Shown here: positions 12,547-34,570 of the stretch, piece by piece
Layout of the letters: each line of letters starts with the position of its first letter
How positions within the stretch are numbered: the stretch's first letter is position 1
From: Desulfarculaceae bacterium
Lineage (GTDB): Bacteria; Desulfobacterota; Desulfarculia; Desulfarculales; Desulfarculaceae
Reading direction: 5' to 3'
DNA length: 37,866 nucleotides
NCBI GenBank assembly: GCA_027067385.1
Contig: JAMOVV010000099.1
Coordinates: 1 to 37,866, forward strand
Notes under the pieces: generated by a model
Database searches by the model: none
Seen by the model: only the letters and a program-made list of their open reading frames with translations
What the model was told of the DNA's origin: nothing
Position numbers and translations under genes: made by a program

Positions 12547-13029
12547 CTACTCCTGCTCCGTGGGTTGGTCCTCAGTCGGTTTCTCGTCGCCGGCGGACTC
12601 GGGCTCGGGCTTGGCCTCGGGCTCGGCCGGTGCTTCCTCGGCGGCCTCGGGCTCGGCGGCGGCCGGGGTTTCCTTGGCCGCCTCGGTCTCCTCGGCCGGC
12701 TCCTCGGGCTCGGGCTCGGGAATCAGGGCCTCGGCGTCGAACTCCTCATCCAATAGCACCGTGAGGTAGCGGATGACGCGCTCGTCGATCTTGAAGTTGC
12801 GCTCCATCTCGGCCACGGCCGCCGGGGTGGCGCCGTAGTCAAAGAGCACGTAGTAGCCCTTGTGGAACTTCTTTACTTCATAGGCCAGGCGCCGACGACC
12901 CCAGTCCTCGACCTTGACCATGGTCCCACCGCCGTCTTCGATGATGGCGCGGAACTTGTCCACCACCGCCGCGATGTCCTCATCGGGCAGCTCTGGACTA
13001 ATAATATAGATGGTTTCGTAATGCCTCAT
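12547..13029 (-). CDS. rpsF: Small-subunit ribosomal protein S6, acidic tail
   Basis: S6 pairs with S18 on the 30S platform. Residues 1-100 are the normal fold: MRHYETIYIISPELPDED, then GRRRLAYEVKKFHKGYYVLFDY and ERVIRYLTVLLD. Residues about 101-160 form a low-complexity tail of Glu, Pro and Ala. In E. coli the S6 tail is extended with glutamates after translation by RimK; here a long acidic tail is genetically encoded. ATG 13029 has GAGGAG upstream. First gene of the operon, preceded by a hairpin leader and a strong promoter. Confidence 0.97.
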   Translation of the reverse strand: MRHYETIYIISPELPDEDIAAVVDKFRAIIEDGGGTMVKVEDWGRRRLAYEVKKFHKGYYVLFDYGATPAAVAEMERNFKIDERVIRYLTVLLDEEFDAEALIPEPEPEEPAEETEAAKETPAAAEPEAAEEAPAEPEAKPEPESAGDEKPTEDQPTEQE

Positions 13030-13051
13030 ATGATCTCCTCATGGCCTTACG

Positions 13052-13072
13052 TCTCCGGCCCTATGCCGGAGA
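13052..13072 (-). promoter_or_regulatory. Hairpin in the rpsF leader, candidate S6:S18 site
   Basis: TCTCCGGC and GCCGGAGA form a perfect 8-bp stem with a 5-nt loop in the 5' leader, about 20 bp before the rpsF start. Many bacteria carry a leader structure bound by the S6:S18 dimer with a conserved CCG element. A CCGG-containing hairpin at this place fits, but the detailed motif cannot be confirmed by eye. Confidence 0.45.
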
Positions 13073-13095
13073 AAGGAGTTGTACTGGAAGTTGCT

Positions 13096-13124
13096 TTGAT
13101 ACCACCGGCTTGGGCGATTGTCAA
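13096..13124 (-). promoter_or_regulatory. Promoter of the rpsF operon
   Basis: On the minus strand TTGACA (13124-13119) and TATCAA (13101-13096) are exactly 17 bp apart. The -35 box overlaps the last codons of the upstream Nudix gene. Transcription would begin about 60 bp before rpsF, giving a leader that includes the hairpin at 13052-13072. Confidence 0.75.
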
Positions 13125-13546
13125 GCCGTGGGCGGGTGTTTGGGGCCGCCGGCCGGATCGGCGGCTTGTAACAGGGCGCGGTCGGCCGGGGCCAGGGTGA
13201 TGCCGTCCAGGTCCTGGGGCGACACCCAGGCCAGCTCACGGTGCTCCAGGGCCCGCGGGGTGCCCTGGAGCAGGCGGCAGTTAAAGGCCCGCAGGCGCAG
13301 GCGCTGTCCCTGGTGCGGCTGCCGCACCTGGCCGTGGAGCCCCTCCACCGCCACCCTGACGCCCAGTTCCTCGGCGATCTCGCGGGCCAGGGCGGCCGCC
13401 GGGGACTCGCCCGGCTCGATCTTGCCGCCGGGCAGCTCCCACAACCCGTTGTCAGCCCGCCGGGCCAAGAGCAGGCGGCCGTTTTGCCGGATCAAGGCGC
13501 AGACCACCTCCAGGGTGGTAGCGGGCTGGGCCGGGCGGACGCTCAA
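13121..13546 (-). CDS. Nudix hydrolase, MutT-like
   Basis: The 141-residue protein carries a complete Nudix box, GGKIEPGESPAAALAREI then AEELGV, at about residues 40-63, with the glutamates that bind the catalytic metal (REIAEE). The N-terminal EVVCALIRQNGRLLLARRADNGLWELPGG and the C-terminal HRELAWVSPQDL match the MutT/8-oxo-dGTP-diphosphatase subgroup. It likely removes oxidised nucleotides, but other nucleotide substrates are possible. TTG start at 13546 overlaps the TGA of the TPR gene (TTGA), indicating translational coupling. It is the last gene of the aminotransferase operon. Confidence 0.88.
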   Translation of the reverse strand: MSVRPAQPATTLEVVCALIRQNGRLLLARRADNGLWELPGGKIEPGESPAAALAREIAEELGVRVAVEGLHGQVRQPHQGQRLRLRAFNCRLLQGTPRALEHRELAWVSPQDLDGITLAPADRALLQAADPAGGPKHPPTA

Positions 13547-20077: not shown

Positions 20078-20143
20078 TGTCAGTTGGGCAATTCCGCTAG
20101 TCATGATATGATGGGGCCCATGAACCACTTAGGCCAAGGTGAA

Positions 20144-20614
20144 ATGCGTGAAGAAGGCGTGGTGGCCGCCCTGACCGGCGAGCTGGCCGTGGTCCGCACC
20201 ATGCAGCAGGATGCCTGCCGGCATTGCGGGGCTCGGGGGGCTTGCACCACCCTGGGGGGGGGCAAAGAGCGGCGGGTAGCCGCCCTGAACCAGGCCGGCG
20301 CCCGGGTGGGGGACCGGGTGGCCCTGGGCATCAGCCGCTCCAGCGCGTTGTCCGCCGGGTTCATGGCTTATATGGTTCCGGTTTTGGCCCTGCTCATCGG
20401 CGCGGCCCTGGGAAAGACCTGGGGTCCCGGCTGGGGGTTTGATCCCCAGAACGCGGCGGTGGTGACGGGGGTGGCGGCCCTGGCGGCCGCCTGGATAGCG
20501 GTGCGCTGGTTGTCTGACCGCCTGGCCAGGCGCGGCCGATTCATGGTGAAGGTGGTAGCTGTGGTTCAAAGAGGAGAAGCGGATGCTCTGGACCAAGATA
20601 TTAATTGCCTTTGA
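20144..20614 (+). CDS. RseC/MucC-family SoxR-reducing system protein
   Basis: This 156-residue membrane protein has a cytoplasmic N-terminal domain (MREEGVVAALTGELAVVRT) with the family cysteines C25, C28 and C34 in CRHCGARGAC. Two membrane segments follow (about 66-90 and 100-122) and a short C-terminal tail. In E. coli RseC works with the Rnf-like Rsx complex to keep SoxR reduced, so presence in a genome with rnf is sensible, although here it is 3 kb from the rnf operon. ATG 20144 matches the usual family start; ATG 20120, 20111 or 20108 and TTG 20084 are in-frame alternatives. Its end overlaps the stress-protein start by 32 bp. Confidence 0.8.
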   Translation: MREEGVVAALTGELAVVRTMQQDACRHCGARGACTTLGGGKERRVAALNQAGARVGDRVALGISRSSALSAGFMAYMVPVLALLIGAALGKTWGPGWGFDPQNAAVVTGVAALAAAWIAVRWLSDRLARRGRFMVKVVAVVQRGEADALDQDINCL

Positions 20615-21050
20615 TTCCTCCCAAGGATCCTGGCGCGCGGTGGAATACGTCGGCCAGATGTTCGGACGCGTGGACGGCATCAAGGTTAATCTTTTGTGGG
20701 TTTACGATAAGGTTCCTGAATACGACATGGTGGAGACGCCGTTTACCGACCAGGTGAAGGGACGCATTTTGGCCTTGGAGCGCGCCAAACAAGAGGGCAT
20801 CCAAAAAATGGAGGAGGCCGTCAAGCACCTAAAGCGCATGGGCATTGACGAGGACTCGGTTTCCATCAAGCCGCTGGAAAAGAAAAAGGGCGTGGCCAAG
20901 GATATCGCCAACGAGGCGCTCCGGGGCGAGTACGGCACCATCATCTTGGGCGGCACCGGCAAGTCCGGCACCACCAACGCCCTCTTGGGCTCGGTTAGCA
21001 GCGGGGTGATCGGCAGCCTCAAGGGCGCGGCCGTGGTCATCGTGGACTAA
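20583..21050 (+). CDS. Universal stress protein (UspA family)
   Basis: The 155-residue UspA-fold protein begins WTKILIAFDSSQGSWRAVEY. It has the ATP-binding-type signature GGTGKSGTTNALLGSVSSGV (G-x2-G-x9-GS) and ends AAVVIVD, all typical of the nucleotide-binding subgroup. The ATG at 20583 has AGAGGAG upstream, inside the end of the RseC-like gene, so translation is coupled. It is likely a cytoplasmic stress-response factor; the specific stress is unknown. The transcript probably runs to the terminator at 21320. Confidence 0.92.
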   Translation: MLWTKILIAFDSSQGSWRAVEYVGQMFGRVDGIKVNLLWVYDKVPEYDMVETPFTDQVKGRILALERAKQEGIQKMEEAVKHLKRMGIDEDSVSIKPLEKKKGVAKDIANEALRGEYGTIILGGTGKSGTTNALLGSVSSGVIGSLKGAAVVIVD

Positions 21051-22433: not shown

Positions 22434-23453
22434 CTAGCCGAATCCCTGGCTCTGGTAGCGCTGGCCGTGCCGGGTGAGGATCATGCCCTCCAGCTCGGGA
22501 CGGGATTTGAGGAAACGAGCCGCCTGGCGCGGTTTCATCACAAAGCAGGCGGTACTCATGGCATCGGCCCACAGGGCCGAGGGCGCGCGCACCGAGGCCG
22601 ACAGGTCGCTGCGCGGCGAGCGGCCGGTGTGCGGGTCCACGATGTGGTGATACAGGCGCTGGCGGTCGAAGAAGACCTGGTAGTTGCCGCTGGTGGCCAG
22701 GGCGCCGCTGCGCAGGCTCAGGGTGTGGCCGGCCCGGGTGGGGTGTTGGGGATCGGCCACGCCGACGCGCCAGGTGCGTCCCGCCCCAGGACGGCCCATC
22801 ACCGCCAGGTCGCCGCCGGCGTTGATCATGGCGTGGCGGGCGCCGGCCCGGCGCACCGCCTCCATGCCCTGGTCCACGATGAACCCCTTGGCCACCCCGT
22901 CGAGGGTGATGGCCGCGCCCTGGCCCACCAGGCGCACCCGGCCCTGGGAGAGGTTCACCCGTCCCAGGCGGCGCAAGGCGTTTTGCAGCTGGGCGCGGGC
23001 CGGCGGCCGGCCACTGGCGGCAAAGCTCTGGCGGGTGAGGTCGATGAGCGGGGCCACGCCAATGTCAAAGGCGCCGCCGGTGATCTCGCCGGCCCGTTGG
23101 CACAGGGCCAGCAGCCGGCTGAGCAGCGGCGGGGCGTCGGCCAGGCGGCCTTCCCGGTTGAGTAGGTACACCGCGCCGGAGCTGCTGTGGCGGTCAAAGA
23201 GCGGGGTGAGCGAGGCCATGCGCGCAAAGGCGTCGGCCAGGGCCTGCTGGGCGCGGGTCGGCGAGGGGTCCAGCACGGTCACCGACACCAGGGTGCCCAT
23301 GAGCATACGGGTTTCCTGCGCCGCCACCAGGCGCTTGTCCAGGCGGGCCAGGCCGATGGCCGGCGACACCAGGGGCAGGGCCGCTCCGGCCGTGGCTACT
23401 CCGGCCAGCTTGAGAAAGGCGCGACGATCCACGGTTTTACGATAAGGGCTCAT
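22434..23453 (-). CDS. apbE: FAD:protein FMN transferase (ApbE)
   Basis: ApbE moves FMN from FAD to a threonine of target proteins. This 339-residue copy has a Tat-like leader (RRAFLKLAG at about 10-18), the flavin-binding region TLDGVAKGFIVDQ, and NAGGDLAVMG, with GNYQVFF and HHIVDPHTG later; all are normal family features. Its Mg and FAD residues appear intact. As the last gene of the rnf operon, overlapping rnfB by 4 bp, it must flavinylate RnfG (SGAT threonine) and probably RnfD. It acts outside the membrane, where these sites lie. Confidence 0.95.
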   Translation of the reverse strand: MSPYRKTVDRRAFLKLAGVATAGAALPLVSPAIGLARLDKRLVAAQETRMLMGTLVSVTVLDPSPTRAQQALADAFARMASLTPLFDRHSSSGAVYLLNREGRLADAPPLLSRLLALCQRAGEITGGAFDIGVAPLIDLTRQSFAASGRPPARAQLQNALRRLGRVNLSQGRVRLVGQGAAITLDGVAKGFIVDQGMEAVRRAGARHAMINAGGDLAVMGRPGAGRTWRVGVADPQHPTRAGHTLSLRSGALATSGNYQVFFDRQRLYHHIVDPHTGRSPRSDLSASVRAPSALWADAMSTACFVMKPRQAARFLKSRPELEGMILTRHGQRYQSQGFG

Positions 23454-25555
23454 GAGCGACCCCCTTGCTGCGCGGCCGCGGCCGGCTGTGATGCTTGAGT
23501 TTCACGACGATAACAGTACAGGCCGCATTGCAGGCAGCGTTGGGCCTCGGCCAGGGCCTGTTCCTCCTTGAGTCCCAGCTCCACCTCCACGAAGCTGCCG
23601 GCCCGCCGGGGTACTTCCAGCTCGGGCATCCGGGCCCGCGGCCCGGCCGGGGCGGCGTCCGGGGTGTCGCCGAGCATGGGCAGGGCCAGGCGGTCGTTCA
23701 CCCAGTTGTCGGGCGGCTCGGGGTCTTCCTGGTTCAGGAAGAGGTGGATGCCGCGGGCGGCCTTGCGGCCGGCCCCGATGGCCTGGACCACGGTGGCCGC
23801 CCCGCTCACCACGTCGCCGCCGGAGAAGACGCCCATGACGCTGGTCTGCATGGAGCCGGTCTTGGCATCGATGGTGTTCCAGCGGGTGAGCTCGATGCGC
23901 TTGCCCTCCTCGTCGGTCTTGAGGAAGTCCAGCTCGGGGAACTGGCCGATGGCCGCGATGACGTTGTCCACCGGCAGTATCTCCTCGGAGCCCTCCACCG
24001 GCACCGGCCGGCGGCGGCCCGAGGCGTCGGGTTCGCCCAGCTCCATGCGGATGAACTCGATGCCGGTGAGCTTGCCGTTTTCGCCGATGAGCCGGGTGGG
24101 CGCGGCCAGGAAGTGGAACTTGATGCCCTCGTGCTCGGCCTCCTCCACCTCGATGTCGTTGGCCGGCATCTCGGCCCGGGAGCGGCGGTAGAGCACCGTC
24201 ACCTCGGCGGCGCCGAGCCGCCAACTGGTGCGAGCGCAGTCGATGGCCGTGTTGCCGCCACCGATAACCACTACCTTGTCGCCCACCGGGGTGTCCTTGA
24301 GCAGTCCCCGGTCGATGAGCATGGTGGTGCCGGGCAGGGTGCCTTGCAGGTCCTCGCCGTCCACCCCCAGGCGGCGGCTGCCCCAGGCCCCCACCCCCAG
24401 GAAGACCGCTTCAAAGCCCTCCTGGCGCAGGTGCTCCAGGGTGAAGTCTTTGCCCATCTCCCGGTTGAGACGCACCTCCACCCCCAGGTCCAGGATGCCC
24501 TGAATCTCCCAGTCCAGAATCTTCTTGGGCAGGCGGTATTCCGGGATGCCGAAACGCAGCATGCCACCGAGGTAGGGCTGGGCTTCGAAGATGGTGGGGG
24601 CGTATCCCAGCCGGGCCAGGTAATAGGCCGCGGTGAGACCGGCCGGCCCGCCGCCCACGATGGCCACCTTGCGGTCGTTCTTGGGCAGGCAGAAAGGCTC
24701 GATGCGCTTGCCCGAGTTCATCTCGTAGTCCGCGACAAAACGTTTGAGGTGGTTGATGTTCACCGGGTCGCCGGTGTGGCGGCGGCGACAGGTGTCCTCG
24801 CAGGGATGGGGACAAACCCGGCCGCAGACCAGGGGCAGCGGGTTGTGCTCCTTGATGATGGTGAGCGCGTCCTCGTAGCGCCTTTCCCCGATAGCCTTGA
24901 TGTAGGCCGGGATGTCGATCTGGGCCGGGCAGGTGGCCTGGCAGGGGGCCAGGCAGTCGCCCAGGGTGTTGAAGCTCAGGATGCGCCGGGTCACCGAGGT
25001 GAGCTTGATGATGTGCTTGGGGCAGACCCGCTCGCAGGTGCCGCAACCGGTGCACAGGGTGGGATCGACCTTGGGCAGCTTGTCCTCGCCCATGGTGATG
25101 GCATCAAAGGGACAGGCCGCTGCGCAGGTGCCCAGACCCAGGCAGCCCACGTCGCAGTACTTGGCGCCGCCCGATAGCAGCACCGCCGCCCGGCAGTCCT
25201 GCACGCCGTCATAGATGAAGCGCAGGTCGGCCTGGTCGGTGCCGTAGGTGCAGTCGGGCTGGGCGACCTCGGGCTCGCGGTACTCCACGGCCACCCCGAG
25301 TACTTCGGCGATGGCCTCGGCGACCTCCGGGCCGCCGCCTACACAGATGTTGGCCGCCGCCCGGCCGGAAGCGATGGCCACCGCCGCCGAGGAGCAGCCG
25401 GCAAAACCGCAACCGCCGCAGTTGGCCCCGGGCAGGGCCTCTTCCACCGCTTCCACCACCGGGTCCACCTCGATGGCGAAGATGCGGGCGGCCACGCCAA
25501 GACCCACCGCGCATACCAAGCCCAAGCCACCGATGGCCAGAGTTGCCATTAGCAT
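23450..25555 (-). CDS. rnfB: RnfB fused to GltD/NfnB-type oxidoreductase
   Basis: The protein has 701 residues, against about 190-330 for ordinary RnfB. Residues 1-25 are the membrane anchor. The RnfB cluster (C46, C49, C54, C71 in NCGGCGFAGC and NIC) and two ferredoxin clusters (C134-C148 and C168-C178) follow. Then comes the extra module: a GltD-type Fe-S region (CLAPCQATCP at 201-210, VCGRVCPHPCEDTC at 243-256), an FAD Rossmann fold (AIVGGGPAG, 298-306) and a second Rossmann fold (VVIGGGNTAIDCAR, 429-442) with RRSRAEMPA after it. The closing FSGGD motif and a last Cys cluster CLQCGLYC follow. The RR pair suggests NADPH, by analogy. The anchor, GGAGG before the ATG and continuous frame make a real fusion likely. 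It would let RnfB exchange electrons between ferredoxin clusters and NAD(P)H. Confidence 0.93.
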   Translation of the reverse strand: MLMATLAIGGLGLVCAVGLGVAARIFAIEVDPVVEAVEEALPGANCGGCGFAGCSSAAVAIASGRAAANICVGGGPEVAEAIAEVLGVAVEYREPEVAQPDCTYGTDQADLRFIYDGVQDCRAAVLLSGGAKYCDVGCLGLGTCAAACPFDAITMGEDKLPKVDPTLCTGCGTCERVCPKHIIKLTSVTRRILSFNTLGDCLAPCQATCPAQIDIPAYIKAIGERRYEDALTIIKEHNPLPLVCGRVCPHPCEDTCRRRHTGDPVNINHLKRFVADYEMNSGKRIEPFCLPKNDRKVAIVGGGPAGLTAAYYLARLGYAPTIFEAQPYLGGMLRFGIPEYRLPKKILDWEIQGILDLGVEVRLNREMGKDFTLEHLRQEGFEAVFLGVGAWGSRRLGVDGEDLQGTLPGTTMLIDRGLLKDTPVGDKVVVIGGGNTAIDCARTSWRLGAAEVTVLYRRSRAEMPANDIEVEEAEHEGIKFHFLAAPTRLIGENGKLTGIEFIRMELGEPDASGRRRPVPVEGSEEILPVDNVIAAIGQFPELDFLKTDEEGKRIELTRWNTIDAKTGSMQTSVMGVFSGGDVVSGAATVVQAIGAGRKAARGIHLFLNQEDPEPPDNWVNDRLALPMLGDTPDAAPAGPRARMPELEVPRRAGSFVEVELGLKEEQALAEAQRCLQCGLYCYRRETQASQPAAAAQQGGRS

Positions 25556-25628: not shown

Positions 25629-26225
25629 CTACCCGGCCAGGCCGGCGAAGCCCCTAAAGGCCAGGGCCAAGAACCCGGCGGTCACCAGGCCGATGGCCGT
25701 GCCTTCAAACACCTTGGGCATGCGGGCCAGCGCAAAGCGTTCCCGGATGCCGGCGAAGAGCACCAGGGCCAGACCGTAGCCCGCCGCCGAGGCAAAGGAG
25801 AACACCAGCGCGTCAAAGAAGTACAGGTCCTTCTTTATGTTGATCAAGGCCACGCCCAACACGGCGCAGTTGGTGGTGATCAGGGGCAGGAAGATGCCCA
25901 GGGCCCGGTACAGGGCCGGCAGGGACTTCTGCATGACGATCTCCACCAATTGCACCAAGGCCGCGATGACCAGGATGAAGGCGATGGTTTGCAGGTACTC
26001 CAGGTTCAGGGGCACCAGCAGGTAGTACTGCACCACGTAGGTGATCATGCCGGCCATGGTGATGACGAAGATGACCGCCATGGCCATGCCGGTGGCGGTG
26101 TCCATGCGCCGGCTGACGCCCAGGAAGGGGCAGTTGCCCAAGAACTGGGCCAGCAGGATGTTGTTGACCAGTACCGCGCCTACGATGAACAGCAGGTAGG
26201 CGCCAAAGCTTTCGGGTCCGCCCAT
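25629..26225 (-). CDS. rnfA: Rnf complex membrane subunit RnfA
   Basis: RnfA and RnfE form the inverted pair of six-helix membrane subunits that hold a [2Fe-2S] cluster mid-membrane and take part in ion pumping. This 198-residue copy shows the conserved NNILLAQFLGNCPFLGVS and LPLITTNCAVLG, including both cysteine positions. Six hydrophobic segments are present and the length is standard. It overlaps rnfE by 1 bp and precedes rnfB by 73 bp. Confidence 0.97.
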   Translation of the reverse strand: MGGPESFGAYLLFIVGAVLVNNILLAQFLGNCPFLGVSRRMDTATGMAMAVIFVITMAGMITYVVQYYLLVPLNLEYLQTIAFILVIAALVQLVEIVMQKSLPALYRALGIFLPLITTNCAVLGVALINIKKDLYFFDALVFSFASAAGYGLALVLFAGIRERFALARMPKVFEGTAIGLVTAGFLALAFRGFAGLAG

Positions 26226-26860
26226 TACTGCGCCCTCCTCTTCTTCCGGTCGAGCCTGATGCCGATCAGGGTGATGATGGCCAGCATGACTCCCAGGCCC
26301 ACGAAGGCGCCCGGCGCGGCCACCATGAATTTGAACGGCTGGTAGGCGTCACCCATTACGTTGATGCTCAGCAGCCCCTTGTAGAGGGTCCAGGTGCCCG
26401 AGCCCAGAATCTCCCGTATGGTGCCCAGGACAAAGAGGCTGATGGTGAAGCCTAGCCCGATGCCCAGGCCGTCGGCAAAGCTGGCCACCGGGCCCCGTTT
26501 GCCGGCAAAGGCCTCGGCGCGGCCCAGGATGATACAGTTGACCACGATGAGCTGGATGAAGATGCCCAGCATTTTATGCAGGTCCGGCACAAAGGCCTTG
26601 AGCATCATGTCCACGATGGTGACAAAGGTGGCGATGATGACGATGTAGGCCGCGATGCGGACCTTGGCCGGGATCACCTTGCGTAGAAGCGAGACCAGCA
26701 CGTTGGAGCAGACCAGCACAAAGGTGGTGGCCAGCCCCATGCCCCAGCCGCCAAAGGCGGTGGCGGTCACGGCCAGCACTGGGCACAGCCCCAGCACCAG
26801 CCGGAAGGGGGGCAGTACGTCCCAGAACCCCTTGGTAAACTCTTTTGCTAAAGAAGACAT
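26225..26860 (-). CDS. rnfE: Rnf complex membrane subunit RnfE
   Basis: RnfE is the partner of RnfA. The 211-residue sequence begins with a cytoplasmic helix (SLAKEFTKGFWDVLPPF). It has six membrane segments with GLCPVLAVTATAFGG and VVNCIILGRAEAFA, the two conserved cysteine motifs. The Lys/Arg-rich C-terminus (DRKKRR) follows the last helix. It lies 13 bp after rnfG and overlaps rnfA. Nothing is missing. Confidence 0.97.
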   Translation of the reverse strand: MSSLAKEFTKGFWDVLPPFRLVLGLCPVLAVTATAFGGWGMGLATTFVLVCSNVLVSLLRKVIPAKVRIAAYIVIIATFVTIVDMMLKAFVPDLHKMLGIFIQLIVVNCIILGRAEAFAGKRGPVASFADGLGIGLGFTISLFVLGTIREILGSGTWTLYKGLLSINVMGDAYQPFKFMVAAPGAFVGLGVMLAIITLIGIRLDRKKRRAQ

Positions 26861-26873
26861 GGGTGCTCCTTGC

Positions 26874-27464
26874 CTACTTGACTATTTGGTCGCGGTACTT
26901 CACGAAAAGAGACCGGGCCTTGTTGATGGCCGCCAAGACGCCCCGGGTGGAGTAGGTGGCTCCACTGATGGCGTTGATGTCGGACTTGGCCAGGGCCTTT
27001 TTAAGCGACTTGCCGGCGAACTGGGACACGAAGGCCTTGCCCTCCTTGGTGGCCGGGTTCAGGGCCTGCTGGGCCGCCGCGATGGTTTCCTGCTGCTCGG
27101 CGATGAAAATACCGGTGAGCTTCTGGTCGGCCAGGTTTATGCCCACCAACACGTTGATGGGCCCGGCGTAGCCGGCCGCGGAGGCCTGCAGGGCCACGGC
27201 CACTATCTTGCCGTCCTTCTTGGCGGGAAACACCGTGAGGGACTGGGGCCGCCCCCGGTGATCCGGGGCCACCGGTACGTTGATGCGGTCGGCGATGGGG
27301 TCGTTGTCCTTGTTGGGCAGCACCGTGTCGATGGCGCCGGCCACTTTTTGCAGGGCGGCGGTCTCGATGGGGCCGCGGGTGATGGAGTCGACCCAGGCCA
27401 CGCCGAAACCGGCCAGGGCGCACAGGACGGTCAACACCACTGTCATATTGATAATGTCACGCAC
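26874..27464 (-). CDS. rnfG: Rnf complex subunit RnfG, FMN-binding
   Basis: RnfG is anchored by one N-terminal helix (about 5-25) and exposes a flavin domain outside the membrane. The FMN-attachment motif NAISGATYST places the flavin on T170. The usual ETPGLG-type motif seen upstream of it in most RnfG/NqrC proteins is absent; the corresponding part reads EQQETIAAAQQALNP. Length (196) is normal. It overlaps rnfD by 8 bp. The change may alter flavin environment or partner contacts. Confidence 0.95.
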   Translation of the reverse strand: MRDIINMTVVLTVLCALAGFGVAWVDSITRGPIETAALQKVAGAIDTVLPNKDNDPIADRINVPVAPDHRGRPQSLTVFPAKKDGKIVAVALQASAAGYAGPINVLVGINLADQKLTGIFIAEQQETIAAAQQALNPATKEGKAFVSQFAGKSLKKALAKSDINAISGATYSTRGVLAAINKARSLFVKYRDQIVK

Positions 27465-28461
27465 TGCTCATCACCTTTCCCAGCACGCGCGGCCGGATGC
27501 GGTCCAACAGGGGTGTGACCGCGTTCATCAGTAGTACGCCGTAGAAGACGCCGTCGACCATGGTGCCCCAGAAGCGCACGATCACGGCCATCAGGCCGAT
27601 GCCCAGGCCGTAGATGATCATGCCCCAGGGGGTGACCGGCGAAGACACCGGCTCCGGGGCCAGGAAAAAGGCGGCGATCATCAGCCCCCCGGTACCCAGA
27701 TGCAGCCAGACCACGTCCAGGTGGGCCGCAAAGCCCTCCAGCTCCACCTCTATTACGCCGGGGTCGATGTAGGAGGCCAACAGGGCCATGGCCGCCGCGC
27801 CCAGCAGGGTGCCCAGGGGAATCTGCCAGGGCACGATGCCGCGGATCACCAGGTACAGGCCGCCCACGATGAGGGCCCAGGCCCCGGTGGCCCCGATGGC
27901 CCCGGGGGTGTTGCCCCACCACAGGGGCCCCAGCTCGGGATCCATCACCAGGCCGACGTCGTCTTTCAAGTCCATCAAGAAAGTAGTGGCCGTCTCCCAC
28001 TCGCCGCCGGAGCCGATGGGCACCGGGGCCAGGAAGGCGTTCATCTGCTCGGGCCAGCTTATCGACAGCGCGGCCCAGGCGATGATCACCGGGTTCATGG
28101 GATAGGCCCCCAGGCCGCCGAAGATCATCTTGCCCAGCACCACGGCCAGCACCGACCCGATCAGGGGCAGCCACCAGGGCGCGCCGGGAGGCAGCACCAG
28201 GCCCATCATCAGGCCCATGGTGAGCGAGTGCAGGTCGTCGATCCGGTTGGGCAGCTTGGCGATCTTGCAGGCGGCCCACTCGGCGGCCACCGCCGCCACC
28301 ACCGCGATGGCCACGGTGATCGCCGCCGGCAGGCCGAAGAAGTACACGCCGGTGAGCAGGGCGGGCAAGAGGGCCACCATCAGCTCCAGGTGCATGGAAC
28401 GCACGGTCATGGAGCCCAGGATGTGCGGCGATGACGATACGGTCAGAAGGTTGTGGTTCAT
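27457..28461 (-). CDS. rnfD: Rnf complex membrane subunit RnfD
   Basis: RnfD is a polytopic membrane subunit carrying a second covalent FMN. The 334-residue chain has about nine to ten hydrophobic segments, and HSLTMGLMMGLVLPPGAPWW and GGLGAYPMNPVIIAWA match the family. By position against E. coli RsxD (MATPLD), the flavin threonine is probably T159 in WETATTFLMD. GAIGATGAWALIVGGLYL is the conserved later helix. Its ATG overlaps the rnfC stop (ATGA). Confidence 0.95.
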   Translation of the reverse strand: MNHNLLTVSSSPHILGSMTVRSMHLELMVALLPALLTGVYFFGLPAAITVAIAVVAAVAAEWAACKIAKLPNRIDDLHSLTMGLMMGLVLPPGAPWWLPLIGSVLAVVLGKMIFGGLGAYPMNPVIIAWAALSISWPEQMNAFLAPVPIGSGGEWETATTFLMDLKDDVGLVMDPELGPLWWGNTPGAIGATGAWALIVGGLYLVIRGIVPWQIPLGTLLGAAAMALLASYIDPGVIEVELEGFAAHLDVVWLHLGTGGLMIAAFFLAPEPVSSPVTPWGMIIYGLGIGLMAVIVRFWGTMVDGVFYGVLLMNAVTPLLDRIRPRVLGKVMSSA

Positions 28462-29816
28462 TCTTCCATCCTCCCGGCCAAGAGCTCGGTTTTACCGTGG
28501 CGCAACAGGTGCACCATGGGGCGCCGGGCCGGACAGACATAAGCGCAGACCCCGCACTCAATGCAATGGAACAAGTCCATTTCCATGGCCTTGTCGAAAT
28601 GCTTGAACTCGCAGAGCTTGCCCAACTCCGAGGGAATCAGGTTCACCGGGCAGGCCCGTACGCAGCGCCCGCAGTGGATGCAGGGATGATCCTCGTAATG
28701 GACCAGGTTGCTGTCGCACTGGATGAACAGGCCCTCGGTCTCCTTGGTCACCGGGGTGTCCAGGTCGTAGTGGGCGTAGCCCATCATGGGGCCGCCCAGC
28801 ACCGCCTTGGCCACCCCGGCGGTGGGACCGCCGGCGGCGGCCAGCACCTGGCTCACCGGGGTGCCCAGGCGCACCCGGAAGGTCTGGGGGTTGGCCACGT
28901 CGCCGGCCACACTGAAGACGCGCTCCAGGCTGGGCCGGCCGCCCAGCAGCAGGGTCCCCACTTCCAGGGCGGTCTGCAAGGGCTCGATGACCACGCCCAC
29001 GTCGCGGGGTTCACCGTAAGGGGTGGGGACCTCGCGGCCGGTGAGGTGGTGGATAAGGAGATTGTCGGTGGTGAAGGGATACTTGGTGGGGGAAACCGCC
29101 GACAGGTTCCAGAGATGGTTCTTGGCCATCTCGGCCATCTCGCCCAGCTCGGCGCCGGCCGGGTGGACCACGATCACCTCCGTGGCGCCGGCGATGCGGG
29201 CCAGGGCCAAGATGCCGATCTCCAGCTCGGGACCGCCCAGCTTGAGGCAGGCGTGGTTGGGGCAAATCGGCGGGTCAGGGTCCACTGCCTTGACCACCAG
29301 GGTGTCCACCTGCCGGGTGACCGGCATGCCGGTCATGAACAGGTAGGAACGCGGGGCCATGGGCGGCGACAGGTCCACGTGCAGGGGCAGGCCCTGGATG
29401 GCCGCCCGCACCAGCCCGGCCTGGCGGATGGGTTTGAGCAGGCGGGTGGGACGCTTGGCGGTCACCTCCTCGGCGCTGGTCACCACCGCCTGGGGCGGGT
29501 CTTGCCAGGTGTCCTGGCCGTCGTTGGCGATGATCAAGGTGGGGATGAGCTGGCCCGAAGGGTCGGGCATCTCCACCAGGCCTTCCACCCGTCCGCTAAC
29601 CGAGGCCAACACCGCGGCGGATTCAAACTCGTCGGAGGAGCCGACCACTTGCCCCATGGCCACGTCCTGGCCTACCTCGACCACCGGCTCGCAGGTTTGG
29701 CCTCGGTGTTGGCGCAGGGGCAGGAAAACCTTCTCCGGCGGTTTCAGGACAACCGGCCCTGTCGGCTCCGGCGGGCGGGCGCGTTTGATGCCCTTAAAGC
29801 AACTCGTGAAACTCAT
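28458..29816 (-). CDS. rnfC: RnfC with degenerate NADH/FMN site
   Basis: RnfC is the peripheral cytoplasmic subunit that in canonical Rnf binds FMN and NADH and two [4Fe-4S] clusters. This 452-residue copy keeps both clusters (CIHCGRCVRACP near 379-390, CIECGVCAYVCP near 418-429) and the barrel-sandwich N-terminus. The family's glycine-rich GLGGAxFPTHVK segment is replaced by AGLVRAAIQGLPLHVDL (133-149). The ECEP-containing stretch is replaced by VKAVDPDPPICPNHACL, and YPQG by YPFTTDN. So NADH/FMN binding there is doubtful; the altered region looks somewhat NqrA-like (YLFMTGMPV). First gene of the rnf block, with AAAGG before the ATG, 182 bp after the kinase gene. Confidence 0.93.
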   Translation of the reverse strand: MSFTSCFKGIKRARPPEPTGPVVLKPPEKVFLPLRQHRGQTCEPVVEVGQDVAMGQVVGSSDEFESAAVLASVSGRVEGLVEMPDPSGQLIPTLIIANDGQDTWQDPPQAVVTSAEEVTAKRPTRLLKPIRQAGLVRAAIQGLPLHVDLSPPMAPRSYLFMTGMPVTRQVDTLVVKAVDPDPPICPNHACLKLGGPELEIGILALARIAGATEVIVVHPAGAELGEMAEMAKNHLWNLSAVSPTKYPFTTDNLLIHHLTGREVPTPYGEPRDVGVVIEPLQTALEVGTLLLGGRPSLERVFSVAGDVANPQTFRVRLGTPVSQVLAAAGGPTAGVAKAVLGGPMMGYAHYDLDTPVTKETEGLFIQCDSNLVHYEDHPCIHCGRCVRACPVNLIPSELGKLCEFKHFDKAMEMDLFHCIECGVCAYVCPARRPMVHLLRHGKTELLAGRMEE

Positions 29817-29998: not shown

Positions 29999-31099
29999 TC
30001 AGCTTGTGGGAATCGATATCACAAAAGTAGTCCCCTCCGCCGGCTGGGATTTAACCTGTATCTCGCCGCCGTGGGCGCGCACCACGCGCCGGGCGATGGA
30101 CAGCCCCAGGCCGGTGCCGGGCTTCTTTTTAAGCTCCGGGCTCTTGGACCGGAAAAAGTCGTCAAAAATATAATCCTGCTCCGCCTCGGGTATGCCGGGA
30201 CCCTGGTCGCTGATGGCCAGGTCCAGCCAGCCCGGGCTGGTGCGGCAGGTTATGCGTACCTCGCCGCCGGGGCGGTTGTACTTAACCGCGTTGCTGGTGA
30301 TGTTGTAGAGCGCCTCCAAAAGGCTTTCGGAGTCTACCTTGACCAGTTGGTCGCGGTCGAAGTCTTCCACCACCAGGCTCTGGCCGGCGGTGTCGGTGTC
30401 GAGCTTGGTGCGCTGGGCCAGGGTGTCGATGATCGAGGCCAGGGTGACCGGCTCCCTGCGCTCGGCCACGCCGCTCTCGGCGATGCGGCTCATGGCCAAC
30501 CAGGCGTTGATAGTGCCCAACAGATCGTCGAGCCGCACCACCGCTCGTTCGATTATCTCGCGGTAGGCCTCTTCCATGGGACCCAGGCTCTGGTTGATCA
30601 CCACCTCCATCAACTGGCGCACCGCCGAGAGCGGCGAGCGCATCTGGTGGGTGACCATGGTGACGAAGTTGGCCTCCATGCGGGCCTTTTCCTCGCGCAG
30701 CTCCTTGGTCTCCAGCTCCAGGAAACGGTGCTCAAAGCCGCGCACCACCGCCCGCCGCAGCTCGTCGGGCGAAAAGGGCTTGGGCAGGAAATCGTAGGCC
30801 CCGTTTTTCATGGCGTCGATGGCCGCCTGCAGGGTGGCGTGGCCGGTGACCATGATGCAGATGATGGCCGGGTCGTATTCCTGCACCGCGGCCAGCACCT
30901 CCTGGCCGCTGATGCCGGGCATGGCCAAATCCACCAGTACCAAGTCCGGCGGGTCGGCCTTGATGGATTCCAGCCCCTGCTCGCCGCTGACGGCGAGGGT
31001 CACCTCGTAGCCCCAGCGGGTCAGCAGAACTTCCGCCGACTCGCGGGCCACTTCGTCATCGTCGATGACCAGCACTCGAGGCTTTGTGCGCAGCACCAT
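29999..31099 (-). CDS. Receiver-histidine kinase hybrid, soluble
   Basis: The 366-residue protein has an N-terminal receiver domain (D14/D15 acidic pair, phosphoacceptor D57 in LVLVDLAMPG, K107). After a short coiled linker come a HisKA dimerisation helix with H151 in VTHQMRSPLSAV and a HATPase domain with N-box NITSNAVKY, G1 DQGPGIP and G2 GTGLGLS. It has no membrane segment or PAS/HAMP domain, so it receives its signal from another protein by phosphotransfer, or from cytoplasmic partners. It lies between a lone receiver gene and rnfC on the same strand, which suggests control of, or sensing by, the Rnf system. No DNA-binding output domain is present in either gene. Confidence 0.92.
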   Translation of the reverse strand: MVLRTKPRVLVIDDDEVARESAEVLLTRWGYEVTLAVSGEQGLESIKADPPDLVLVDLAMPGISGQEVLAAVQEYDPAIICIMVTGHATLQAAIDAMKNGAYDFLPKPFSPDELRRAVVRGFEHRFLELETKELREEKARMEANFVTMVTHQMRSPLSAVRQLMEVVINQSLGPMEEAYREIIERAVVRLDDLLGTINAWLAMSRIAESGVAERREPVTLASIIDTLAQRTKLDTDTAGQSLVVEDFDRDQLVKVDSESLLEALYNITSNAVKYNRPGGEVRITCRTSPGWLDLAISDQGPGIPEAEQDYIFDDFFRSKSPELKKKPGTGLGLSIARRVVRAHGGEIQVKSQPAEGTTFVISIPTS

Positions 31100-32560: not shown

Positions 32561-32662
32561 CGGGCCCCGGAGGTTGGCCGCCCGCAACGGGCAGCCGTGT
32601 AGGCGGGAGGCTGCTGCTTTTCCACCGTAGGGGACCGCTAACCATTGGGTGGAGATCAAAAT

Positions 32663-34570
32663 ATGGACAAGCTCTTGACCACCTCGGGAGGCAGGCAGCA
32701 GTTGCTGCTGGGCAACGAGGCCATAGTACGGGGCGCCTTGGAGGCGGGGGTGGCGTTCGTCACCTGTTACCCCGGTACCCCCTCGTCGGAAGTCCCCGAT
32801 ACTTTTTACCGCCTGCGCAAACAGAACCCCGGCGCCACCAGGTATTATTTCGAGTATTCGACCAACGAGAAGGTCGCCCTGGAGTGCGCCGCCGGGGCCG
32901 CGGTCGCCGGGCTGCGCACCATGTGCACCATGAAGCACGTGGGGGTCAACGTGGCCGCCGACCCGCTGATGACCCTGGCCTACGTGGGGGTCAACGCCGG
33001 CATGGTGATCCTCACCGCCGACGACCCCTCGCTCTTTTCCAGCCAGAACGAGCAGGACAACCGCTACTACGCGCGCCTGTCAGGCCTGCCCCTGCTGGAG
33101 CCGGTGGGGCCGGCCGAGCTCAAAGAGGTCACCAAGTACGCCTTCTCCCTCAGCGAGGAGCTGGGCCTGCCGGTGCTGATGCGCACCACCACCCGGGTCA
33201 ACCACGCCCGTGAGCCGGTGCCCTTCCAGCGCCTGCCCAAGACCAAGACCCAGGGCAAGTTTGAAAAGGCTCCCTTCCAGTACGTCACCGTGCCGGCGGT
33301 GAGCCGCAACCTGCACCTCAAGCTGTTGGCGGCCCAGAAGCAGGCCCTGGCCATCAGCGAGAAATCCGATCTCAACAAGATCTTCGGCAGCGGCAAGCTC
33401 GGGGTGATCACCAGCGGCGTGAGCGTCAACTACGTGCTCGACGCGGTGGATGACCTGGGGGCCAAGAAGAAGATCAAGGTGCTGAAGCTGGGCTTCTCCT
33501 GGCCGCTGCCCGAAAAGAAGATCGCCCGCTTCCTAAAGAGCGTGGACAAGGTCCTGGTGGTGGAAGAGGGCGAGCCCATCGTGGAAGAGGCGGTCAACGC
33601 CATCGCCAACCGCTGCGGCGCCAAGTGCGACATCGGCGGCAAGCAGATGTGGAAATTCCCCCCGGTGTCGGTGGACGTGGAGCGTCCCAAGTTCCTGAGC
33701 CGGGCCTTTGAATACAACCCCCGCATGGTGCGCGAGGTCATGGCCAAGTACTTCGGCCTCAAGCAGCAGGCGCCCAGGCCGGTGAGCCTCAAGGGCATAC
33801 CCGATCTGCCGGGGCGTCCGCCCAACCTCTGCGCCGGCTGCCCCCACCGGGCCACCTTCTACGCGGTGAAAGAGGTGGTGGGTCCCGATGCCATCCATCC
33901 CACTGACATCGGCTGCTACACCCTGGGGCTGCTGCCGCCGATCTCCATGGCCGACTTCCTCATCTGCATGGGATCGTCGGTCTCCAGCTCCGGCGGCCTG
34001 TCCTTTGCCACCGGCAAAAAGACGGTGAGCTTCATCGGCGACTCGACCTTCTTCCACTCCGGCCTCACCGGCCTGGTCAACGCGGTGCACAACAACCACG
34101 ACTTCACCCTGGTCATCCTGGACAACGGCACCACGGCCATGACCGGCCACCAGCCCAACCCCGGGGTGGATACCGAGGCCCTGGGCGATCCCACCACCCA
34201 CATCGATATCGAGCAGGTGGTGCGCGGCCTGGGGGTGCAGCACGTCACCACCATCAAGCCGTTCAAGGTCCGCTCGGCCATGGCCGCCATCCAAAAGGCG
34301 GTGGACTTCAAGGGCGTGAGCGTGATCATCAGCCAGGAGCTGTGTCCCCTCTACGCCCGCCGGGTGGCGCCCAAGACCAAGCGCCCCTTTGCGGTTAACC
34401 CCAACAAGTGCAAGGGCCACCTGGACTGCATCCAGAAAGTAGCCTGCCCGGCCATGTTCCTGGATGACCAGGGCAAGGCCCAGATCAACCCGTTGCAATG
34501 TATCGGCTGCGCTCTCTGCGCCCAGATTTGTCCGGAGAACGCTATTCTACCCGTCAAGGCCAAGGCTTAA
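32663..34570 (+). CDS. iorA: Indolepyruvate ferredoxin oxidoreductase, alpha
   Basis: IorA is the catalytic subunit that converts arylpyruvates, CoA and oxidised ferredoxin to aryl-acetyl-CoA, CO2 and reduced ferredoxin. The 635-residue sequence has the pyrimidine-binding domain (TCYPGTPSSEVPDTFYRL), CPHRATFYAV and the thiamine-diphosphate motif GDSTFFHSG near 458-466 with LDNGTTAMTGHQPNPG. A C-terminal two-cluster ferredoxin domain (CKGHLDCIQKVACP, CIGCALCAQICP) follows. ATG 32663 is chosen over an upstream TTG because GGAG lies eight bases before it. Its partner iorB follows 12 bp later. An obvious supplier of reduced ferredoxin to Rnf. Confidence 0.96.
   Translation: MDKLLTTSGGRQQLLLGNEAIVRGALEAGVAFVTCYPGTPSSEVPDTFYRLRKQNPGATRYYFEYSTNEKVALECAAGAAVAGLRTMCTMKHVGVNVAADPLMTLAYVGVNAGMVILTADDPSLFSSQNEQDNRYYARLSGLPLLEPVGPAELKEVTKYAFSLSEELGLPVLMRTTTRVNHAREPVPFQRLPKTKTQGKFEKAPFQYVTVPAVSRNLHLKLLAAQKQALAISEKSDLNKIFGSGKLGVITSGVSVNYVLDAVDDLGAKKKIKVLKLGFSWPLPEKKIARFLKSVDKVLVVEEGEPIVEEAVNAIANRCGAKCDIGGKQMWKFPPVSVDVERPKFLSRAFEYNPRMVREVMAKYFGLKQQAPRPVSLKGIPDLPGRPPNLCAGCPHRATFYAVKEVVGPDAIHPTDIGCYTLGLLPPISMADFLICMGSSVSSSGGLSFATGKKTVSFIGDSTFFHSGLTGLVNAVHNNHDFTLVILDNGTTAMTGHQPNPGVDTEALGDPTTHIDIEQVVRGLGVQHVTTIKPFKVRSAMAAIQKAVDFKGVSVIISQELCPLYARRVAPKTKRPFAVNPNKCKGHLDCIQKVACPAMFLDDQGKAQINPLQCIGCALCAQICPENAILPVKAKA

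Follow-up and report, generated by a model that had tools for sequence, protein, structure and literature searches.

The rnf operon on a 37,866-nucleotide stretch of DNA from a Desulfarculaceae bacterium (contig JAMOVV010000099.1 of assembly GCA_027067385.1, hereafter the window) encodes an RnfB that continues into a complete GltD-type module, carrying the motifs for flavin adenine dinucleotide (FAD) and for reduced nicotinamide adenine dinucleotide or its phosphate (NAD(P)H). This fusion recurs in a large bacterial group composed mostly of sulfate reducers, and the fusion-bearing Rnf is a new variant of the complex. Since the site for flavin mononucleotide (FMN) and NADH in RnfC and the FMN site in RnfD are lost, and the module is present on RnfB, the NAD(P)H site has probably been relocated, from RnfC at the output end to RnfB at the input end. 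The explanation that best covers all observations adds to this relocation the loss of the RnfD and RnfC flavins and the departure of electrons at RnfG, and we regard it, on balance, as the probable one. Therefore, these Rnf pumps probably run a reaction other than the textbook one. A literature search returned no account of the fusion; many subscription papers lay outside its reach, and an earlier mention is still possible.

The gene reads on the minus strand as a single open frame from 25555 down to 23450 (701 codons and a stop). It is the sixth gene in the order rnfC-D-G-E-A-B, with rnfC, D, G, E and A recognised upstream by Pfam and NCBIfam profiles, and its stop overlaps the start of apbE, completing an rnfCDGEAB-apbE operon (Table 1). 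The gathering of the six genes in one operon, the anchor, FeS domain and ferredoxin clusters of RnfB, the cluster cysteines of RnfA/E and the covalent-FMN motif of RnfG all identify the complex as Rnf by descent. Along the fusion, Pfam assigns FeS, 4Fe-4S, Fer4_20 and Pyr_redox_2 domains, the last at 6.6e-33. The top NCBIfam match is the GltD-like model PRK12771 (2.1e-154, slightly below the cut-off of the model); residues 191–682 are covered by GltD-like models and the N-terminus by RnfB models. The presence of Fer4_20 together with the FAD and NAD(P)H Rossmann motifs places the module in the GltD/NfnB/StnC family. Across 45 aligned homologues, the invariant cysteines comprise the four of the FeS domain, those of the ferredoxin clusters, most of those in the GltD domain, and C674, C677 and C681. 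The AlphaFold model has a mean predicted local distance difference test score (pLDDT) of 87. Indeed, the first-pass annotation, which was silent on the strand, had correctly described a one-frame RnfB of 701 residues with a GltD-like module and its three motifs.

The distribution of the fusion was examined at several scales. Among the 63 genomes of the class that were searched, most of those from the same family encode RnfB-type frames of about 680–745 residues, and a search of named genomes retrieved dozens of records from Desulfobacterales and related taxa matching across the fusion junction. Regions around RnfC matches in a phylum-wide scan of 345 genomes, after three duplicates were dropped, yielded 135 non-redundant rnf operons, of which 64 are fused, 58 unfused and 13 without a recognised nearby rnfB; because sampling was by RnfC and fusion matches, these proportions are not natural frequencies. 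The domain-order search proposed in the first-pass annotation thus found the fusion to be common, closed genomes included, and the idea that it is unique to the window genome was rejected. Among the fused operons, L061 (Desulfosarcina alkanivorans) and L094 (D. widdelii) lie on closed chromosomes. That a single draft genome was misassembled, is chimeric or carries a frame error at this point has a practically negligible probability: nothing in its favour was found beyond the draft state of the genome (206 contigs), and the homologues in dozens of genomes, with closed chromosomes among them, refute it. Neither a frame error joining two genes nor the absence of the fusion from close relatives, the two outcomes named earlier as fatal, was encountered. 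As separate observations, L222 has an apparently frame-broken fusion gene (~12879-13292, plus strand) in an otherwise complete operon, and at L223 (206-2254, minus strand) an rnfCDGEA operon lacks rnfB and an RnfB-GltD fusion lies close by on the opposite strand.

In trees reconstructed with FastTree, the fused operons all fall within a single clade of 75 in the RnfD+E+A phylogeny (129 operons), which also contains the unfused L202–L204, showing the same losses, and several operons without a nearby rnfB. The support of this fusion clade is moderate (0.86, decreasing to 0.52 with RnfE+A alone).

The GxGGAxFP loop and the NGxECEP motif are absent from RnfC in all the fused operons (64/64), most of which have deleted the loop outright, and the loop is kept in 48 of the 58 unfused ones. 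By homology to NuoF of complex I, we take these motifs to be the FMN-phosphate loop and the contacts to the isoalloxazine ring and NADH. In the operon of the window, the canonical FMN/NADH site of RnfC (GxGGAxFP, NGxECEP, ExNK, YPQGxEK) is missing. Such a NuoF-like FMN site has been described in RnfC (PMC9588780, PMC11889175). Seven genomes provide an internal control, as each has an unfused operon in which the RnfC site is kept and a fused one in which it is missing. AlphaFold models contain no cofactors, and it is from the sequence that we infer the absence of FMN from RnfC. An ordinary Rnf, with NAD+ still being reduced at an RnfC site that escaped recognition and the GltD part being regulatory or a side entry, would agree with the preserved fold of the RnfC of the window (model pLDDT 90.7; Z 45.4 to 9eri_C). 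Nevertheless, the flavin-free NqrA retains this fold as well, and the disappearance of the FMN/NADH motifs, with the loop deleted in most operons, makes this possibility very improbable.

The losses extend to RnfD and are concentrated in these two subunits. Considering the columns conserved at ≥92% in the loop-keeping operons, the fusion clade has lost 44 of 81 in RnfC and 17 of 52 in RnfD, but only 3/32 in RnfA and 1/26 in RnfE, and none of the 10 columns of RnfG or of the 20 of the RnfB part. The RnfD losses include T153, R130 and E185 (C. tetanomorphum numbering), respectively the covalent FMN residue and two polar residues at that flavin, which the C. tetanomorphum structure places at the RnfD FMN (PMC9588780). 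In the RnfD of the window, a threonine aligns with T153, yet the flavinylation motif D..[ST].A[TS]P of canonical Rnf is absent, and R130 is replaced by W, E185 by A and D248 by E. In contrast, the covalent-FMN motif of RnfG is kept in 70 of the 75 members of the fusion clade, and R67, L103, V106, N107, C108 and E115 of RnfE (A. woodii numbering) are kept in all of them; the RnfE Na+-site residues are those of the A. woodii structure (PMC11889175). The first-pass annotation overlooked both losses, that of the RnfC FMN/NADH site and that of the RnfD FMN site, in view of which the module looks like a relocated NAD(P)H site and not like an appendage to an otherwise normal Rnf.

The association between site loss and fusion holds in one direction only. 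The loop is also lacking in 10 unfused operons, namely L206, L208, L210 and L228–L230, which form a separate clade, L202–L204 and L222. In the six operons of the separate clade the RnfC loss arose independently and the RnfD FMN motif is intact; a small flavodoxin-like gene was noted by eye near rnfC in L208, L210, L230 and L212. The position of L202–L204, either on the stem of the fusion clade or nested within it, depends on the tree: a loss of the sites before the fusion is hinted at by the RnfD+E+A tree and unsupported by the RnfE+A tree, where L202/L203 branch inside the fusion clade. They may thus represent an intermediate or a secondary loss. In these three operons, universal stress protein-like and RseC-like genes follow rnfB, as near the rnf operon of the window (by eye).

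Regarding the module, the closest solved structures are the GltD domains of NfnABC (9bov, 9n5u) and StnC (8oh5), which align over residues ~199–680, including the C-terminal RCLxCG segment, with Z scores of 41.6–43.1; the match to NfnB is weaker (Z about 32, residues 199–609). The structural matches cover mainly the GltD part and are uninformative on the N-terminal half. K271, at the position of the StnC ligand K170, is a lysine in all operon fusions (63/63) and in all fusions outside rnf operons (solo fusions, 34/34), and both this lysine and the RCLxCG segment are features of StnC, an enzyme reported as non-bifurcating (PMC10482914). The glutamate near the proximal cluster of bifurcating NfnB (Glu126) is here replaced by this lysine. 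Thus, the module resembles non-bifurcating StnC more closely than bifurcating NfnB, and electron bifurcation by it is not expected. The NuoG domain of StnC and StnAB (NuoE/HydB-like) neighbours were found neither in the fusion protein nor in its operon; NuoE/NuoF neighbours were seen at solo fusions and, apart from these, in just two other operons. The YRRSR..EMPA motif, similar to that of the NADPH-binding StnC and NfnB, suggests NADPH as the substrate. The complete and conserved FAD/NAD(P)H unit and this motif thus favour the first-pass proposal that RnfB itself probably reacts with NAD(P)H, more likely NADPH. Of the 63 operon fusions, 49 have an intact NAD(P)H motif, the fusion of the window among them. 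Two operons with a degenerate motif have a same-strand NuoF-like gene upstream of rnfC (L191:4229-6091, plus; L195:10647-12473, minus).

Spelled out as a full model, the direct ferredoxin/NAD(P)H exchange suggested in the first-pass annotation would have RnfB alone transfer the electrons at the membrane, with no ions pumped and the remaining Rnf secondary. Every centre needed for this would lie on one chain, and fusions without rnfCDGEA do exist. Nevertheless, RnfA/E and RnfG would then have no role, although the operon form conserves the residues of their cofactor and Na+ sites, and K271 stands where NfnB has Glu. Furthermore, the NAD(P)H motif is degenerate in 23 of the 34 solo forms, of which at least 13 lie beside a NuoF-like partner. 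This direct exchange is accordingly weakened and appears improbable, leaving the earlier interpretation partly supported overall. The solo loci deserve mention in their own right: at L035, L036, L037, L041, L042, L046, L047, L048, L050, L051, L054, L088 and L099 a HydB/NuoF-like gene lies immediately upstream of the fusion, mostly preceded by a NuoE-like gene, in a StnABC-like layout with RnfB replacing NuoG. In the aligned members of these 13 fusions the NAD(P)H motif is degenerate, as if NuoF provided the NADH site.

In the mechanism that we favour, the StnC/GltD-type module behind the RnfB ferredoxin domains would comprise two [4Fe-4S] clusters, FAD and an NADPH site, and NADPH would most likely reduce the FAD. 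Single electrons could then travel via the clusters of the module and, within RnfB, via the ferredoxin clusters and next the mobile FeS domain, reaching the [2Fe-2S] cluster of RnfA/E and, from there, the periplasmic FMN of RnfG. Because the RnfD FMN and the RnfC FMN/NADH site are lost, the U-turn by which electrons canonically return to NAD+ has probably been interrupted, and the electrons would most likely exit at RnfG to a periplasmic c-type cytochrome. The reverse direction, from cytochrome to NADP+ and driven by a Na+ gradient, is an alternative. The sequences themselves establish the fusion, its conservation, the missing site residues in RnfC and RnfD and the intact sites of RnfA/E and RnfG, and from these we infer the NADPH specificity, the loss of cofactors, the exit at RnfG, the coupling to ions and the direction. 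For the organism of the window, an exit to cytochrome c comes close to an even chance. A multihaem cytochrome gene sits next to rnfC, on the preceding side, in 54 of the 55 sister-subclade operons, compared with 1/48 of the loop-keeping unfused operons (5/48 end at a contig edge), and the genome of the window encodes two tetrahaem c3-type cytochromes elsewhere. The genome paper of D. phosphitoxidans reports rnfCDGEA with a cytochrome c gene, RnfB being unnamed in its text (PMC4046663). The Rnf of Methanosarcina acetivorans does not use NAD(P), and electron transfer from its RnfG to cytochrome c has been proposed (PMC4023990). In its full form, this model would be a half-loop that couples Na+ to electron transfer from NAD(P)H to periplasmic cytochrome c (or the reverse), with RnfB-GltD as the NADPH end and RnfG as the cytochrome end. 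Such a third Rnf/Nqr architecture, with RnfD and RnfC off the NAD+ path and with an origin parallel to that of Nqr through the move of the NAD(P)H site to the input subunit, can be advanced only tentatively.

Several observations weigh against this explanation. RnfC invariantly retains both [4Fe-4S] clusters (eight cysteines) and RnfD keeps the riboflavin residues (N124 kept, D248 mostly Glu), neither of which a dead return leg would need and which the half-loop cannot explain. The fused operons are essentially one clade, and the 64/64 count reflects few independent events; since the correlation between RnfC loss and fusion rests on these, a Fisher test on the operons overstates it. In addition, the close relatives L202, L203 and L204 show the flavin-site losses of RnfC and RnfD without a fusion, and the NAD(P)H motif is degenerate in 14 of 63 operon fusions. 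No cytochrome gene adjoins rnfC in the 17-operon subclade of the window, which therefore lacks the multihaem cytochrome c gene of an Rnf-cytochrome c operon, and the rnf-linked decahaem cytochrome DhcA of D. alaskensis was largely dispensable (PMC4215793). The retained RnfC cysteines, the Asn/acid pair for riboflavin in RnfD and the missing cytochrome gene would fit a U-shaped Rnf of changed polarity, in which the RnfD riboflavin serves a return leg (the second flavin being non-covalent or absent) and the RnfC clusters reduce a soluble carrier such as ferredoxin, coupling NADPH on RnfB to ferredoxin on RnfC. However, the loss of the RnfD FMN threonine motif and of both polar FMN contacts should break transfer from RnfG, and no conserved carrier gene was noted beside the operon in the three subclade operons whose neighbours were read. 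We consider this arrangement rather unlikely.

The variant can be compared with several known systems. With canonical Rnf (A. woodii 9eri, C. tetanomorphum 7zc6, A. vinelandii 8ahx) it shares the six subunits, the cluster and Na+-site residues of RnfA/E, the RnfG FMN motif and the fold and Fe-S clusters of RnfC, and differs in an RnfC without FMN/NADH motifs, an RnfD without the FMN attachment motif and an RnfB with a GltD-type module. StnC of StnABC and the NfnABC subunit have in common with it the NADPH/FAD module, the lysine at the ligand position and a C-terminal RCLxCG, but StnC has a NuoG domain attached and StnAB as partners, whereas the module here is attached to a membrane-anchored RnfB. 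NfnB (NfnL) of NfnAB is similar in fold, FAD and NADPH motifs and the Arg equivalent to R201; it differs in Glu126, a Lys here, and the fusion protein has no NfnA-like domain. As in the Na+-translocating NADH:quinone oxidoreductase (Na+-NQR), NAD(P)H would enter at the input subunit rather than at the RnfC/NqrA position, and the subunit in that position is without a flavin site. In contrast, NqrF belongs to the FNR-type FAD/[2Fe-2S] proteins and has no relationship to GltD, the covalent FMN is still present in NqrB, and NqrA has lost the Fe-S clusters whose eight cysteines RnfC keeps here; with neither an NqrF-type FNR domain on the input subunit nor a cluster-free NqrA, the complex is not a Na+-NQR. 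The Rnf of M. acetivorans, with its multihaem cytochrome c, is a precedent for NAD(P) independence (PMC4023990), but is archaeal and ferredoxin-fed, and no GltD module has been described for it.

Around the operon, beyond apbE, RseC-like and universal stress protein-like genes were recognised by eye at 20084-20614 and 20583-21050 (both plus strand), with similar neighbours in relatives. A response-regulator/histidine-kinase gene (29999-31099, minus) adjoins rnfC, near an indolepyruvate:ferredoxin oxidoreductase-like frame (32642-34567, plus; by eye) that has comparable frames near rnf in L034 and L148. Elsewhere, at G000:C200:7971-8069, another gene, perhaps a corrinoid protein subunit of carbon monoxide dehydrogenase/acetyl-CoA synthase, strongly matches PF04060.

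Table 1. Features of the rnf operon and of its fusion protein (positions in the window).
Feature	Positions	Strand	Basis
rnfC without FMN/NADH site, both [4Fe-4S] clusters kept	28458..29816	-	profiles, alignments, model
Degenerate FMN-phosphate loop of RnfC, LVRAAIQGLPLHVDLSPP (canonical RnfC: IVGxGGATFPTHVKLSP)	29361..29414	-	alignments
RnfC [4Fe-4S] cysteines C379-C389	28650..28682	-	invariant
RnfC [4Fe-4S] cysteines C418-C428	28533..28565	-	invariant
rnfD, degraded FMN site	27457..28461	-	profiles, alignments
rnfG, covalent-FMN motif SGAT kept	26874..27464	-	profiles, column comparison
rnfE, cluster cysteine and Na+-site residues kept (A. woodii numbering)	26225..26860	-	profile, alignment
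rnfA	25629..26225	-	Pfam, NCBIfam
rnfB-gltD fusion, 701 residues	23450..25555	-	open frame, Pfam/NCBIfam, homologues
N-terminal membrane anchor helix, residues 2-25	25481..25552	-	helix in AlphaFold model; RnfB models
RnfB FeS domain, residues 41-72, C46 C49 C54 C71	25340..25435	-	PF04060; cysteines 100% in 63 operon fusions
Two ferredoxin-type [4Fe-4S] motifs, residues 137-184	25004..25147	-	PF00037, PF12838; cysteines 100% conserved
Fer4_20/GltD N-terminal Fe-S domain, residues 203-281	24713..24949	-	PF14691, 7.9e-29
K271, equivalent of StnC K170 (cluster ligand)	24743..24745	-	63/63 operon and 34/34 solo fusions; PMC10482914
FAD/NAD(P)H oxidoreductase domain, residues 296-596	23768..24670	-	PF07992; VIA Z 41.6-43.1 to StnC/NfnA-type chains
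FAD Rossmann motif AIVGGGPAG, residues 298-306	24638..24664	-	kept in every aligned fusion
NAD(P)H Rossmann motif VVIGGGNTAIDC, residues 429-440	24236..24271	-	sequence, alignments
RRSRAEMPA, NADPH-type motif, residues 457-465	24161..24187	-	aligned with StnC, NfnA, NfnB
C-terminal cysteine segment CLQCGLYC (C674, C677, C681)	23513..23536	-	invariant; same place in 9n5u/9bov/8oh5, N-terminal in NfnB
apbE (flavin transferase)	22434..23453	-	PF02424

Genome papers assign a ferredoxin/NADH exchange to the Rnf of such sulfate reducers (e.g., PMC10553843). If RnfC has no NAD site and RnfB uses NADPH, the metabolic models of these sulfate reducers need revision. The clade also offers a natural test in the dispute on the ion path, which has been placed in RnfD (PMC9588780) or RnfA/E (PMC11889175): as the RnfD FMN site is gone and the RnfE Na+ site untouched, Na+ transport by this complex, if true, would favour RnfA/E. 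Finally, a study on the evolution of Nqr proposed in 2014 that NqrA derived from RnfC through the loss of its NAD and FMN sites (PMC4014512), and by analogy the fusion clade looks like a parallel case. If so, it would be a second route to the Nqr outcome, with the RnfC flavin site lost and NAD(P)H entering at the input subunit.

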